Source of the DNA: Stappia sp. 28M-7 | Lineage (GTDB): Bacteria > Pseudomonadota > Alphaproteobacteria > Rhizobiales > Stappiaceae | DNA length: 64,000 nt | Direction of reading: 5' to 3' | NCBI RefSeq assembly: GCF_014252955.1 | Contig: NZ_JACMIA010000001.1 | Span: 2,998,258-3,062,257 of the forward strand | In this document: one piece after another, positions 3,554 through 53,920 of the stretch | How positions within the stretch are numbered: position 1 is the stretch's first letter | Layout of the letters: each line of letters starts with the position of its first letter | Notes under the pieces: model-generated | Databases searched by the model: none | Told to the model about the DNA's origin: nothing | What the model saw: the letters and a program-made list of their open reading frames with translations, nothing else | Position numbers and translations under genes: made by a program

Positions 3554-4363
<810 letters not shown>

Positions 4364-4374
4364 GGCGAGACGAC

Positions 4375-6180
4375 ATGGCCGACTTTCCCCAACTCACCCT
4401 GCCACAGATGCTGCGCGCCCATGCCGAGGCGACACCCGACCGGGTGGCCGTCCTGCAGAAGGATTTCGGCATCTGGAATCCCCTCACCTGGCGCCAGTAT
4501 CACGAGCGTGCCTGCGATGTCGGCGAGGGCCTGCTGGCGCTCGGGCTCGGCGAAAGCGGCCATGTCGCCATCCTGTCCGAGAACCGGGTGGAGTGGGTGC
4601 TGGCGCAACTCGGCGTCAATGTCGTCGGCGGCGTCGCCATCGGCGTCTATCCGACCAGCCCGGCCAACGAGGTCGGCTATGTGCTGGAGCATTCCGACAG
4701 CGAGATCATCGTCTGCGAGGACCAGGAGCAGCTCGACAAGGTGATCGAGGTGCGCGACCAGTTGCCGAAGCTGCGCCGCGTCGTCGTCATCGAGACCAAG
4801 GGCCTGCGCGGCTATTCGGAGGACTTCGTGATCTCCTTCGCCGCCATGGAGGCGATGGGGCACGCGCGCCGTGCCAAGGCGCCCGGTCCCGAACGCAGCG
4901 CCTCCGCCGATCGCGGCCTCGATGACATCGCCCTGATGATCTACACCTCGGGTTCGACCGGAAAGCCGAAGGGCGCGATGCTGTCCTATCGCAACCTGCG
5001 CGCCCAGGCGATCGCGATCGCCGACCGCATCGATCTCGACGCCGAGACCGTGCACCTCTCCTACCTGCCGCTCTGCCACGTTGCCGAGCAGATGGTCACG
5101 GTGATGGCGCCGATCTACCTCGGCTCGCGGATCTGCTTCGGCGAGTCCCTGCGCACCGTCCAGGAGGACCTGCGCGAGGTCGCCCCCTCCTCCTTCCTCG
5201 GCGTGCCGCGGATCTGGGAGAAGCTGCATTCCTCGATCCATATCCGCATGCTGGAGGCCGGCGGCTACCGACGGGCGCTCTACGAATGGGCCTATCGCGC
5301 CTGCGAGCCCTTCGCCGAAAAGTCCCGAGCCGAGCGCAGCGTGAGCGAGCGGATCACCTTCGCGCTCTGCTACCTGTTGGTCTTCCGCGCGCTGCAAAAT
5401 TATATCGGCCTGCGCCGGACCCATATCGCCATGACGGGCGCCGCGCCCATCTCCCCGCGCATCGTCCGCTTCTTCCGCACCATCGGTGTGCCGCTGGTCG
5501 AGGTCTACGGCATGACGGAATCGAGCGGCGTCGCCCTCGGCCAGACGCTGGACCGCCTCATTCCGGGGTCGGTCGGCCCGGCCGCCAAGGGCGTCGAGGC
5601 GCGCGTCGGCGAACACGGCGAGCTGCAGCTGAAGGGCGATACCGTCTTCGTCGGCTACTACAAGAACCCGGCCGCCACCGAGAGTTCGCTGCGCGACGGC
5701 TGGCTCCACACCGGCGACGTAGTCGAGGTGGAGAACGGCGAGTTCCGCATCGTCGACCGCCTCAAGGACATCATGATCACCGCCGGCGGCAAGAACCTCA
5801 GCCCCTCGGAGATCGAGAACACGGTCAAGGGCAGCCCCTACATCAAGGAATGCATCGTCATCGGCGAGGCCCGCAAATACGTGGCGGCGCTCATCCAGAT
5901 CGACTTCGAGACCGTCGCCAAATGGGCGGAGGAGAAGGGCCTGTCCTACACCAACTTCCGCAGCCTTGCCGAGAACGCGGCGGTGCGTGAGCTGGTCGAC
6001 ACGGAGATCCGCGCCGCCAACGACCAGCTGGCCCAGGTCTCCCACATCCGCCGCTTCCACCTGCTGACCAAGGAGCTGGACCACGACGACGACGAGGTCA
6101 CCGCGACCATGAAGGTGCGTCGCTCCAGCATCCAGACCAAGTATGCGGGCGAGATCGCCAGCCTCTATCCGACCGGCTGA
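4375..6180 (+). CDS. AMP-dependent acyl-CoA synthetase (long-chain type)
   Basis: ANL-superfamily ligase of 601 residues that converts a carboxylic acid, ATP and CoA to the acyl-CoA, AMP and PPi. The P-loop is IYTSGSTGKPKGAM near residue 188; VEVYGMTESSG (A5) lies near 380, LHTGDVVEV (A7) near 445, and the hinge motif RLKDIMITAGGKNLSPSEIE near 465. Length and motifs fit the FadD15/long-chain-like branch rather than acetyl-CoA synthetase. Placed directly after a LIV importer and before thiolase and hydratase genes, it most likely activates the imported acid. The true chain length or ring structure of the substrate is unknown. Confidence 0.9.
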   Translation: MADFPQLTLPQMLRAHAEATPDRVAVLQKDFGIWNPLTWRQYHERACDVGEGLLALGLGESGHVAILSENRVEWVLAQLGVNVVGGVAIGVYPTSPANEVGYVLEHSDSEIIVCEDQEQLDKVIEVRDQLPKLRRVVVIETKGLRGYSEDFVISFAAMEAMGHARRAKAPGPERSASADRGLDDIALMIYTSGSTGKPKGAMLSYRNLRAQAIAIADRIDLDAETVHLSYLPLCHVAEQMVTVMAPIYLGSRICFGESLRTVQEDLREVAPSSFLGVPRIWEKLHSSIHIRMLEAGGYRRALYEWAYRACEPFAEKSRAERSVSERITFALCYLLVFRALQNYIGLRRTHIAMTGAAPISPRIVRFFRTIGVPLVEVYGMTESSGVALGQTLDRLIPGSVGPAAKGVEARVGEHGELQLKGDTVFVGYYKNPAATESSLRDGWLHTGDVVEVENGEFRIVDRLKDIMITAGGKNLSPSEIENTVKGSPYIKECIVIGEARKYVAALIQIDFETVAKWAEEKGLSYTNFRSLAENAAVRELVDTEIRAANDQLAQVSHIRRFHLLTKELDHDDDEVTATMKVRRSSIQTKYAGEIASLYPTG

Positions 6181-51011: not shown

Positions 51012-53182
51012 GCCCGGCGTCGCGCCAAGGCAACGGACAACGCGCCGGCGCGACGCCCCTGATCGCGCTCGATGTGGTCGTGCTCGACACCGAGACCACC
51101 GGTCTCGACATCCGCAAGGACCGCATCGTGCAGATCGGCGCGGTGCGCATGGAAGGGGTGGAGGTCCATCCCGAACTCAGCTTCCAGGAACTCGTCGCCC
51201 CCGGCCTTGCGATCCCGGAGGTCGCCCGCCGCATCCACGGGCTCGGCGACGAGGACGTCGCCGGCAAGCCGGACTTCTCGCAAGTCGGCCCGCGGCTGCT
51301 GGAATTCATCGGCGATTCCGTCGTCGTCGGCCATTCGATCCATTTCGACCTCGCCGTGCTGCGCCACGAGGCCGACCGGCACGGCATCGCCTGGCGCGAG
51401 CCGCGCTCGCTCGACGTGGCGCTGCTGGTCGCGGGCCTCGACCGGGCGATGATCGACACCTCGCTCGACAGTCTGGCGCTCGGCTACGGCATCCCGGTGG
51501 AAGGGCGGCACACCGCCTTCGGCGATGCAGTCGCGACCGCGCGGATCTATTCCGCGCTGATCCCCAGGCTGCTCGCCAAGGACGTGCGCACGCTCGCGGA
51601 GGCGGAGAACCTGTCGCGCAAGCCCGCCGGCCTGATCGCCCGGCAGGAGGAGGCCGGCTGGTTCGAGCGCCCCTCCGAGCGGCCGGACTTCTCCCGCGCG
51701 GTGATGCGCTCGGGCAGCCAGCGCGCCATCGACAGCTTCCTCTACCGCCACCGACTGGCCGACGTGATGAACAGCCCGCCGATCTGCATCGCGCCGGAGG
51801 CGAGTCTGCACGAGGCCGCGCAGCTGATGGCCGACCGCGGCATCGGCTGCCTGATCGTCGATCCCGCGCACGAGGACGGGGAGCCCGGTATCGTCACCGA
51901 ACGCGACGTGCTGCATGCGCTGGCCCGAGAGGGACCTGGCGCCAGCGAGGTTGCGGTCGGAAAGGTGATGAGCGCGCCGGTGATCAGCGCGCCCGACGAC
52001 ACGTTCCTCTATCGCGCCCTCGGCCTGATGGCCCGGCGCAACCTGCGCTATATCGGCGTCACCGACGGCGCCGGACGGCTGGCCGGCGTCTTCACTCTGC
52101 GCACGCTGCTGCGCAAGCGCGCGCTGGCAACGCTGACCGTCGGCGACGAGATCGCCACCGCCGCCCGCCCGCGCGATCTTGCAAGGGTGCAGGCCGCCCT
52201 GCCCTCGCTCGCCGCCGGGCTGCTGGCCGACGGCCAGGACGCACGGCAGGTGGCGGCGATCATCGCGGCGGAAGCGCGGGCGATGACGGCGCGCGCGGCG
52301 GAACTGGCCGAGGCGGAGCTGGTGGCCGCCGGCCGTGGCCCGGCGCCGGCCGACTATGCGCTGCTGGTGCTGGGTTCGGGCGGGCGCGGCGAAAGCCTGC
52401 TCGCCCCCGACCAGGACAATGCGCTGGTGATCGCCGACGACTATACGGGCGATCTCGACGACCCCGACGACTGGTTCACCCGCTTTGCCGCGCGCATCAA
52501 CGAGATCCTCGACCGCGCGGGCATCCCCTATTGCAAGGGCGGGGTGATGGCGAAGAACCGGCCCTGGCGGCGACGCCTCGGCGAATGGCTGGATCAGGCG
52601 CGCGACTGGGCCGGCCACCCCTCGCCGCAGGCGCTGCTCAGCGTCGACATCTTCTACGATTTCACGCCCGCGCATGTGTCGGGCAGCGGCGGCAGCCGAC
52701 TGGCGGGGCAGCTGCGGCGGGACGCCGGCGAGATCGCCCGCGGCTCGCTCTCCATGCTGCGGGCGCTCGGCAATGCGGCCGGCAGCCACGCCCCGCCGCT
52801 CGGCCTGTTCGGGCGGATTAAGAAGGACGACACGGGCCGCGTCGACCTCAAGGCCGGCGGGCTGCTGCCCATCGTTTCGGGCGCCCGCGCCATCGCCCTG
52901 CGCCACGGCGTCGCCTCGCTGTCGACGCCCCAGCGCCTGCGCCAGGCGGCGGAAAAGGCCGGCCGCTCGCAGGCGGATGCGGACCTGCTCGCCGACATCC
53001 ATGGCTTCCTGATGCGACTGATCCTGACCCAGCAGATCGTCGACCTGGAGGCCGGCGTGCCGCCGACCAACCGGGTGCGGCTCGACGCGCTGAGCCACCG
53101 CGACCAGGACGAGCTGCGCGAGGCGCTCGGCCGGATCGACCTGATCACCCACATGCTGCAGGACCTGTTGCAGGGCCTGTAG
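51008..53182 (+). CDS. Exonuclease-CBS-DUF294 nucleotidyltransferase-like fusion protein
   Basis: Protein of 724 residues with three parts. Residues 20-190: DEDDh 3'-5' exonuclease (Asp27, Glu29 in LDTETTG; Asp114 in IHFDLA; His168 and Asp173 in RHTAFGDA). Residues 253-372: two CBS domains, which bind adenosine nucleotides. Residues 395-720: DUF294 nucleotidyltransferase-like domain (LGSGGRGESLLAPDQD, 455-470) and its C-terminal helical part. Similar CBS-DUF294 proteins sit beside SSS symporters and are thought to sense nucleotides for transport control. The start GTG 51008 overlaps the previous stop. Confidence 0.88.
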   Translation: MSPASRQGNGQRAGATPLIALDVVVLDTETTGLDIRKDRIVQIGAVRMEGVEVHPELSFQELVAPGLAIPEVARRIHGLGDEDVAGKPDFSQVGPRLLEFIGDSVVVGHSIHFDLAVLRHEADRHGIAWREPRSLDVALLVAGLDRAMIDTSLDSLALGYGIPVEGRHTAFGDAVATARIYSALIPRLLAKDVRTLAEAENLSRKPAGLIARQEEAGWFERPSERPDFSRAVMRSGSQRAIDSFLYRHRLADVMNSPPICIAPEASLHEAAQLMADRGIGCLIVDPAHEDGEPGIVTERDVLHALAREGPGASEVAVGKVMSAPVISAPDDTFLYRALGLMARRNLRYIGVTDGAGRLAGVFTLRTLLRKRALATLTVGDEIATAARPRDLARVQAALPSLAAGLLADGQDARQVAAIIAAEARAMTARAAELAEAELVAAGRGPAPADYALLVLGSGGRGESLLAPDQDNALVIADDYTGDLDDPDDWFTRFAARINEILDRAGIPYCKGGVMAKNRPWRRRLGEWLDQARDWAGHPSPQALLSVDIFYDFTPAHVSGSGGSRLAGQLRRDAGEIARGSLSMLRALGNAAGSHAPPLGLFGRIKKDDTGRVDLKAGGLLPIVSGARAIALRHGVASLSTPQRLRQAAEKAGRSQADADLLADIHGFLMRLILTQQIVDLEAGVPPTNRVRLDALSHRDQDELREALGRIDLITHMLQDLLQGL

Positions 53183-53217
53183 CGGGCGCCGGCAATCTCA
53201 GCCGCGCAGGGTCTCGG

Positions 53218-53294
53218 CTAGTGTGGTGAATTTGAAATACGCCTCACTTTGGCAGCACACCCAGAGCGTATTTCAAATTCGAAAACCACACTAG
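53218..53294. repeat. CTAG-ended bulged inverted repeat, copy 1
   Basis: Outer arms CTAGTGTGGT (53218-53227) and ACCACACTAG (53285-53294); inner arms GAATTTGAAATACGC (53228-53242) and GCGTATTTCAAATTC (53266-53280), both perfect. The right side has a 4-base insert GAAA (53281-53284) and the loop is 23 nt. It has the same architecture as copy 2, inverted relative to it. It is AT-richer than surrounding genes and lies 36 nt after the DUF294 fusion gene. Confidence 0.9.
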
Positions 53295-53307
53295 AAACAT
53301 AAACTTG

Positions 53308-53383
53308 CTAGTCACCCTTTTGAATCTGAAGTTCGTTCAGAGCATGCCGTGAAATACGACGAACTTCAGATTCGGGTGACTAG
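53308..53383. repeat. CTAG-ended bulged inverted repeat, copy 2
   Basis: Outer arms CTAGTCACCC (53308-53317) and GGGTGACTAG (53374-53383); inner arms GAATCTGAAGTTCGT (53322-53336) and ACGAACTTCAGATTC (53359-53373), perfect, with a 4-base TTTT insert on the left (53318-53321) and a 22-nt loop. Against the reverse complement of copy 1, the inner arms match at 11 of 15 positions and the changes are compensated on the other arm. It overlaps the 3' end of the next minus-strand gene. Confidence 0.9.
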
Positions 53384-53920
53384 GTCGTTCCACACCATCT
53401 GCCGCGTCAGCTTGCCCGCCTCGACCTCGAACCGGTCGATGAAGCGCACGCCGGAAAAGGCGGTGCCGTCCGGCCATTCGCCCGACAGGGTGCCGAAGCA
53501 GAACACCGTGGCGCCCTCGACGCCCAGCGCCGTGTCGAACCCCTCATAGCTCTTGCGCACGAAGCGGTAACGCCCCTTCGCCCAGGCGGCGAGCTCCTCG
53601 GGTCGGGAAAAGCTGACCCCGCCGGGGAAGGTCATGACGAACCCTTCGGCGAGATATTCCGAGGCGCGGGCGAGATCGCGCGCCTCCATCGCCTCGAGGA
53701 AGCCGCGAACCAGCGCCTGCGGGTCGGGAGACGGCGCGCCCGGCACGCGGGACGTGCCGCCGCGCATGTAGTTGTCGGGCCGCACCTCCTCGATCGCCAC
53801 GGTGATTCCCTCCAGCGGCGCGGCCATCGTGCCGCGCACGGCGGCGGTCAGCCGCTCGCCCAGAAGCCGCCGCGTCTCGGCCGGATAGCCCTCGATCAAG
53901 GTCACGCGCACCACCGGCAT
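53366..53920 (-). CDS. Tautomerase-SnoaL-like fusion protein
   Basis: Protein of 184 residues. Residues 1-60 resemble a 4-oxalocrotonate tautomerase subunit (Pro2 in MPVVRVTLIEGYPAETRRLL; EEVRPDNYMRGG), and residues 65-180 a SnoaL/NTF2-like domain (QALVRGFLEAMEARDLARASEYL, GVRFIDRFEVEAGKLTRQMVW). Fusions of this kind are unusual in my knowledge. The last residues LVTRI and the stop are encoded by the arm of the CTAG repeat, so the original C-terminus has probably been replaced. GGAGGAGAGG precedes ATG 53920. Function unknown. Confidence 0.75.
   Translation of the reverse strand: MPVVRVTLIEGYPAETRRLLGERLTAAVRGTMAAPLEGITVAIEEVRPDNYMRGGTSRVPGAPSPDPQALVRGFLEAMEARDLARASEYLAEGFVMTFPGGVSFSRPEELAAWAKGRYRFVRKSYEGFDTALGVEGATVFCFGTLSGEWPDGTAFSGVRFIDRFEVEAGKLTRQMVWNDLVTRI

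Follow-up and report, generated by a model that had tools for sequence, protein, structure and literature searches.

The window, a stretch of 64,000 nucleotides from Stappia sp. 28M-7, carries at 53218..53383 (plus strand) a 166-bp element that runs from one CTAG foot to another and is built from two palindromes in inverted orientation to each other. Hairpin A (53218..53294, plus strand) begins with the left outer foot, a CTAG (53218..53221, unstranded) that may be the target site or its duplicate, and contains a CTAG-led outer stem of 10 bp (53218-53227/53285-53294), an inner stem of 15 bp (53228-53242/53266-53280), a loop of 23 nt (53243-53265) and a 4-nt GAAA insert in its inner (3') arm (53281..53284, plus strand). 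A central spacer of 13 nt, AAACATAAACTTG (53295..53307, plus strand), which is similar to an IHF site, leads to the mirror image of hairpin A, hairpin B (53308..53383, plus strand), with an outer stem of 10 bp (53308-53317/53374-53383), a TTTT insert in the inner (5') arm (53318..53321, plus strand), an inner stem of 15 bp (53322-53336/53359-53373), a loop of 22 nt (53337-53358) and the right outer foot, again CTAG (53380..53383, unstranded). The original prediction had described two bulged, CTAG-ended hairpins with one-sided inserts, and every detail that we checked was correct, including 50 Watson-Crick pairs out of 50 across the two hairpins. It had also suggested mobility as one possible role of the hairpins; mobility was supported, but not for each hairpin alone, as the unit is the hairpin pair together with the 13-nt spacer, which the prediction did not mention and which belongs to the mobile unit. 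The inner arms of hairpins A and B differ at 4 of 15 positions, and a comparison by eye of the left end with the right end in the window copy gives 16 matching positions out of 25. Folded as a single DNA strand, the element reached -49.7 kcal/mol compared with -14.8 ± 2.6 for shuffled sequences (z = -13.4), a value attained by 0 of 200 shuffles. A host gene on the minus strand (53366..53920), encoding Tautomerase and SnoaL-like domains, now has its last codons and its stop within hairpin B, and its C terminus, as read by eye, differs from the version at the empty site in genome G012.

Many dispersed copies had been expected in the genome and its relatives, and these were found with BLAST, pattern and covariance model searches. 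The same 5.1-Mb genome contains a second near-complete copy, inverted, 93% identical and with identical end points, as well as four further partial or decayed copies. Matches at E <= 0.001 occurred in 13 of 61 genomes (own included), and since 7 of the 14 genomes in the genus of the window genome gave no match, the distribution is patchy. From 10 of the 13 matching genomes we extracted 82 copies, some of them partial, whose flanks fell into 12 shared-site groups and many unshared sites. Roseibium sediminicola holds 36 near-full copies, eight of which, the query among them, are identical to each other; Martelella mediterranea has nine copies spanning at least 159 of 167 positions as well as 11 places, one of them incomplete, occupied by a further subfamily whose stems differ in their letters. 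An identical element sequence was also found at two distinct loci in two genomes (L050, L059), and copies are present on Roseibium/Labrenzia plasmids. With covariance model R1 the architecture was detected in 77 of the 397 genomes sampled from the order (own included) and in 33 of 141 genera, and a class-level draw gave 18 of 385 genomes, own included (17 of 384 others); per-genome copy numbers from the covariance searches are lower bounds, seven candidates having been scored per genome. The stems of the order- and class-level copies are largely different in their letters. In being short, non-coding and present in many dispersed copies, the element resembles MITEs.

Several individual copies deserve separate mention. 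A viral contig (L332, IMGVR_UViG_3300033180_000047) bears two inverted copies, at 2118-2281 and at 4346-4475, the latter truncated where the contig stops, and they flank the genes for the terminase small and large subunits; this contig is a possible vehicle for spread between genera. A search of a phage collection with the element gave no match. A stretch resembling hairpin A (77%) lies on two Sphingopyxis plasmids (NZ_CP009430.1, 110144-110218). Copy L349 (genome G474) is a shorter version of ~133 bp that keeps both stems and has almost no hairpin loops, and shorter versions of about 133 bp also occur in genome G750. At L003 and L013 (G000, positions 3505463 and 753422), a remnant of hairpin B lies at the stop codon of each of two genes with C-terminal sequences similar to each other, which suggests that gene and repeat were copied together or that the site is preferred.

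Pairing is kept throughout the family while the stem letters change. In alignment A1, 53 chosen copies had 95.1% of their cells paired, with 30 of the 50 pairs changed on both sides and 146 doubly changed cells compared with 27.9 ± 4.4 after shuffling, and pairing fell to 22-42% when the arms were slid out of register. This alignment holds 53 of the 64 non-redundant sequences, the window element replacing L043, and omits by choice L054, L058, L072, L074, L082, L097, L098, L099, L113, L117 and L119; the choice of rows favours pairing, and the count was repeated with all 64. These 64 copies and the reference gave 93.8% paired cells (88.3% when shuffled), 30 of 50 pairs doubly changed and 161 doubly changed cells against a shuffle maximum of 46. 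Similarly, the 75 BLAST-found copies were 94.7% paired (92.2% when shuffled), with 24 of 50 pairs doubly changed. The largest numbers came from 45 diverse copies (45 of 90 aligned rows, best strand per place), in an alignment that is fitted to the covariance model and leans towards pairing: 97.9% of cells were paired, 39 of 50 pairs doubly changed, and 381 cells doubly changed compared with at most 129 in 200 shuffles. The set of 115 members omits 7 of the 82 BLAST-found copies (L114, L086, L120, L121, L079, L080 and L109), 3 of the 35 named-contig copies (L155, L160 and L190) and 3 of the 11 M2 places.

Copies that stay at one locus behave differently. Comparing same-locus copies between species at 12 loci, the species pairs being non-independent, we counted 99 changes in total: 59 single changes disrupted a pair and 30 left it intact, and of the double changes 4 were paired and 6 were not. 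By our estimate, chance would leave the pair intact in about one third of cases with a single change, which is close to the observed share, so resident copies look unconstrained. As same-locus copies decay freely, pairing seems to be kept by mobility or by templated renewal rather than by an RNA function in the host, and a copy, once inserted, seemingly brings its host no benefit and decays. In three copies in R. sediminicola (L282-L284) the 4 inserted nucleotides of hairpin A, and no others, have been lost, and a fourth (L285) has lost the insert of hairpin B. In L054 an AAAA faces the TTTT, which is not so in the orthologues L071 and L085. Judged from the letters of these copies (L282-L285 and L054), the arms are evidently renewed by templating, and PMC8794818 reports that compensatory changes can arise by template switching. 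Templated correction between arms could explain the covariation. The original prediction had read this covariation as a sign that pairing is selected; the step to selection is too strong as worded, because templated arm correction happens here. The insert persists in most copies despite templating, which suggests that the lineages that move need it.

The inserts belong to a small group of constant features. Of the 68 BLAST-found copies that were parsed, 67 carry an insert of 3-4 nt in the inner arm of hairpin A and 66 one of 2-6 nt in that of hairpin B. With the pattern-found and M2 copies included, the inserts are present in 107 of 108 (hairpin A) and 106 of 108 (hairpin B), and in other families in 39 of 41 and 41 of 41, respectively; this wide census of inserts and spacers has 10 of 159 copies unparsed and excludes L282-L285, each without one insert, and its 32 pattern-found copies are biased because the search pattern covers part of the insert. 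The traits that recur are the CTAG feet, an A-rich inner-arm insert of 3-5 nt per hairpin and the central spacer, which measures 13 nt in 95 of 108 close and 38 of 41 other-family parsed copies.

The spacer occupies the middle of the element and resembles an IHF-like site in its letters. The IHF consensus is WATCAANNNNTTR, and in the diverse set the best conserved spacer positions (A1, C4, A5, T11, T12 and G13, about 88-96%) coincide with the specified positions of this consensus; positions 7-10 are weakly conserved, and positions 3 and 6 mismatch it. Scored against the consensus, 30 diverse spacers had a mean of 7.4 out of 9 compared with 5.9 for shuffled spacers, and 16 of the 30 scored 8, as do 1.5% of shuffles, with 14 of 44 diverse copies unscored for want of a spacer recognised by the rule. 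The 100 spacers of close copies had a mean of 6.75 (5.75 when shuffled), 79 of them scoring 7 and only one scoring 8.

To define the target site, we compared orthologous sites and identified six at which some relative has no element: the window site (empty in G012), L044 (in G006 and G012), L081 (in G002), L045 (in G000, G004, G006 and G012), L048 (in G006 and G012) and L083/L060 (in G002 and G000). Filled sites have CTAG on both sides and empty sites a single CTAG or a near-variant of it. For L044 and for L083, each of the two relatives has an unaltered CTAG at the empty site. The other four sites depart from CTAG by a single change (CGAG, CTGG and TTAG) or by one or two (CTGAG or TTGAG). The CTAG duplication foreseen in the original prediction would agree with the single tetranucleotide at empty sites and the CTAG on both sides of filled ones, but an exact CTAG was found at only two of the six. 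Duplication of TA, duplication of CTAG and one CTAG borne by the element would all fit these sites equally well. The outer bases of the element feet vary in 20 of 230 and the inner bases in 7 of 230, which leans towards TA duplication. By eye, the difference at the empty window site looks like one between the leucine codons CTA and CTC on the minus strand, which makes an ancestral CTAG plausible there. At L188 two tandem copies have one CTAG in common. The junction of L045 in G003 and G001 has diverged beyond reading, the L068 insertion had no orthologous site among the 13 other genomes of the genus, and no empty site was found for L046, L049 or L050 among the 20 stretches compared. A tandem duplication of ~15 bp adjoins the empty CTAG of the L083 site in G000 (L321, near 9447).

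Within the genomes compared, the dispersed copies, the empty sites and the eight identical copies in R. sediminicola show that the element has moved recently and that it enters CTAG or similar sites as one unit, in line with the mobility first proposed for the hairpins. We consider it, on balance, probably a mini-transposon of about 166 bp that is structure-dependent and non-autonomous. The enzyme, a transposase or recombinase provided in trans, would recognize each end in a folded form, either single-stranded or cruciform, a mode of recognition that we infer because the stem letters may change while pairing stays. Each end is a bulged palindrome whose outer arm starts with CTAG and whose inner arm is the reverse complement plus the A-rich insert, and it may be this insert that distinguishes the outer foot from the inner foot. 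IHF would bend the centre, allowing two ends only 166 bp apart to meet, and insertion would duplicate TA or the whole CTAG.

We searched for the enzyme that may mobilize the element. An end-pattern search of G061, G062 and G002 gave, among the matches listed, no longer version with the same ends and no parent IS; the matches in the three genomes belonged to element copies or remnants, a lone weak two-mismatch match (G061:C35:9986) and three-mismatch matches being left out. Another CTAG-footed, MITE-like repeat adjoins ten of the 35 named-contig copies, every one of the ten from R. sediminicola, and inspection by eye of the open frames beside three of these ten found no transposase. An inner foot of L114 contains a further repeat of ~268 bp (490-757), also MITE-like and with CTAG feet, whose ends are GGGTCTGGACC; its placement fits TA duplication, and related ends abut the ten R. 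sediminicola copies. At L046, an open frame that by its look may encode an IS5-type transposase lies ~55 bp beyond a foot reading CTAA. The CTAG-footed repeats at the feet, together with the repeat in L114, make a CTAG/TA-targeting DDE enzyme (IS5/IS427 or IS630 type) a fair candidate.

Such an enzyme is central to the alternative that survives best, which we hold to be possible though rather unlikely, namely that the element is an ordinary MITE whose double-stranded ends are bound by a DDE transposase (IS5/IS427- or IS630-like, with TA duplication within YTAR/CTAG). Its palindromes would then be pairs of inverted binding sites, and pairing would be renewed by template switching during replication with no hairpin recognition. 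The single tetranucleotide at empty sites agrees with this, as do the greater variability of the outer foot bases, the MITE-like repeats at the same CTAG in the ten named-contig copies and the fit of the L114 repeat to TA duplication; template switching, moreover, is evident in L054 and L282-L284 and is reported elsewhere (PMC8794818). However, both ends vary in their stem letters from one subfamily to another, which one sequence-specific transposase would hardly tolerate, the two ends of the window copy match only to the extent given above, and no parent IS with these ends was present among the matches listed.

The remaining alternatives are weaker. Integron attC sites and some phage attachment sites are folded recombination sites, and the element might likewise be a folded site for a tyrosine recombinase, spread with phages or plasmids. 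The bulged hairpins with one-sided inserts would suit such a role, as would the two copies on the terminase-bearing viral contig and those on the Roseibium/Labrenzia plasmids; the copies are nevertheless dispersed singly, each unit has two hairpins and the phage collection gave no match, and we judge this reading very unlikely.

Slightly less credible still is a structured regulatory RNA, or a stabilizer or terminator of 3' ends, that is selected in the host and copied around. The fold is very stable, and in 44 of 134 feet the TAG of the outer foot serves as the stop of an open frame of 100 codons or more, compared with 25 and 14 for the other frames (50 of 184 feet, which have no TAG, being excluded), so either the element prefers to insert at stop codons or CTAG occurs at such places. 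Against this stand a scan of 53000-53600, in which no terminator-like or promoter-like signal was detected, and the Rfam searches, in which six relatives gave no match at the gathering threshold and the window stretch only matches below the gathering score, for example mir-4637 with E 0.12. Unfitted alignments displayed no G-U excess (58 G-T versus 68 A-C cells, and 83 versus 96); the surplus in the model-fitted 45-copy alignment (39 G-T versus 18 A-C cells) is given little weight because the aligner favours G-U. Along with the free decay of stems in resident copies, where same-locus pairs are lost at about the unconstrained rate, these results lend no support to the RNA stem that had been put forward in the original prediction.

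Weakest of all, and close to refuted, is a REPIN or BIME moved by an IS200/IS605-type tyrosine transposase (RAYT): PMC6006769 and PMC3733652 describe the recognition of subterminal secondary structures by such enzymes, the element has a pair of bulged palindromes in inverted orientation whose feet carry a tetranucleotide, and 17 of 70 carriers gave a Y1_Tnp match, but the tag is CTAG on both feet rather than GTAG or CGTC, and in two Pfam family searches Y1_Tnp (PF01797) was absent from 53 of the 70 carriers, R. sediminicola and Martelella included, and from all 9 carriers among 37 genomes of the other set. The control for this search was positive in 5 of 14 known genomes, and the Y1 searches omit 19 carriers of the order survey (G030 among them) and two of the class draw (G604 and G643).

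Returning to the proposed mini-transposon with folded ends, its defining trait would be structure rather than sequence, so that repeat finders based on sequence may split or miss it. No title or abstract among the open-licence papers that our searches listed described the element, and its sequence strings had no match there; it is apparently a common, undescribed mobile repeat, for which a prior name is possible. It raises two testable questions, namely whether folded DNA ends are used without an HUH transposase, and what shares selection and template switching have in the compensatory change of palindromes. For annotation, some copies lie at stop codons, at least one C terminus has been changed (in the window), and copies could be mistaken for RNA genes. 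More speculatively, and with doubts that outweigh our confidence by a good deal, the element could represent a class-wide family whose ends are recognized by shape, as bulged hairpins that an IHF bend at the centre draws together, and whose enzyme is of a type other than IS200/IS605-HUH; hairpin-dependent transposition would then have arisen in bacteria in another, independent lineage.

Several known repeats share features with the element. Correia elements and RUP are MITEs of the IS630/IS5 type with a TA-type target and a single end-to-end hairpin, and Correia elements contain an IHF site. The element is likewise short and non-coding with what may be a TA-type target, whereas its two ends form separate bulged hairpins and its stem letters are free. 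RIME, with two large palindromes and about 106-116 bp, is like it an alphaproteobacterial intergenic repeat made of palindromes and differs in length, the two being compared by description only. RIME was described in Rhizobium (Osteras et al. 1995, as cited in a passage of PMC2573895). Bru-RS1 and Bru-RS2 of Brucella, of 103 and 106 bp, are portrayed in excerpts of PMC2266754, PMC3163539 and PMC10800456 as likely hot spots for IS711, which inserts at YTAR with TA duplication and has one new copy in a Bru-RS1 (excerpts of PMC2266754 and PMC3163539). These are alphaproteobacterial palindromic repeats as well, and the CTAG-footed repeats at the feet of the element are placed in a similar way to IS711 in Bru-RS1; the element, at 166 bp, differs from Bru-RS1 and Bru-RS2 in length.

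The likeness to REPINs lies in short, non-coding, mobile pairs of palindromes with a tetranucleotide tag. According to parts of PMC3733652 and PMC3116915, REPs measure 20-40 bp and have the tags GTAG or CGTC, with a RAYT partner proposed for GTAG, and the CGTC REPs are likewise without a known transposase in these parts. The element differs from REPINs in its CTAG tag, in having mostly no Y1 and in its hairpins of 76-77 bp. The closest parallel in design is RIP or BIME-1 of Escherichia coli, in which two REPs enclose an IHF site: both are dispersed and have an IHF-like site at the centre, flanked by imperfect palindromes in inverted orientation, and REPs bind IHF (stated in a passage of PMC1525189). 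Here, in contrast, CTAG feet lie on both sides of each 76-77-bp hairpin, the stems are of 25 bp with a 4-nt inner-arm insert, a 166-bp unit moves to a target site and most tested carriers are without RAYT. As tag, size, enzyme and target differ, the element works like RIP/BIME-1 and is no member of it.
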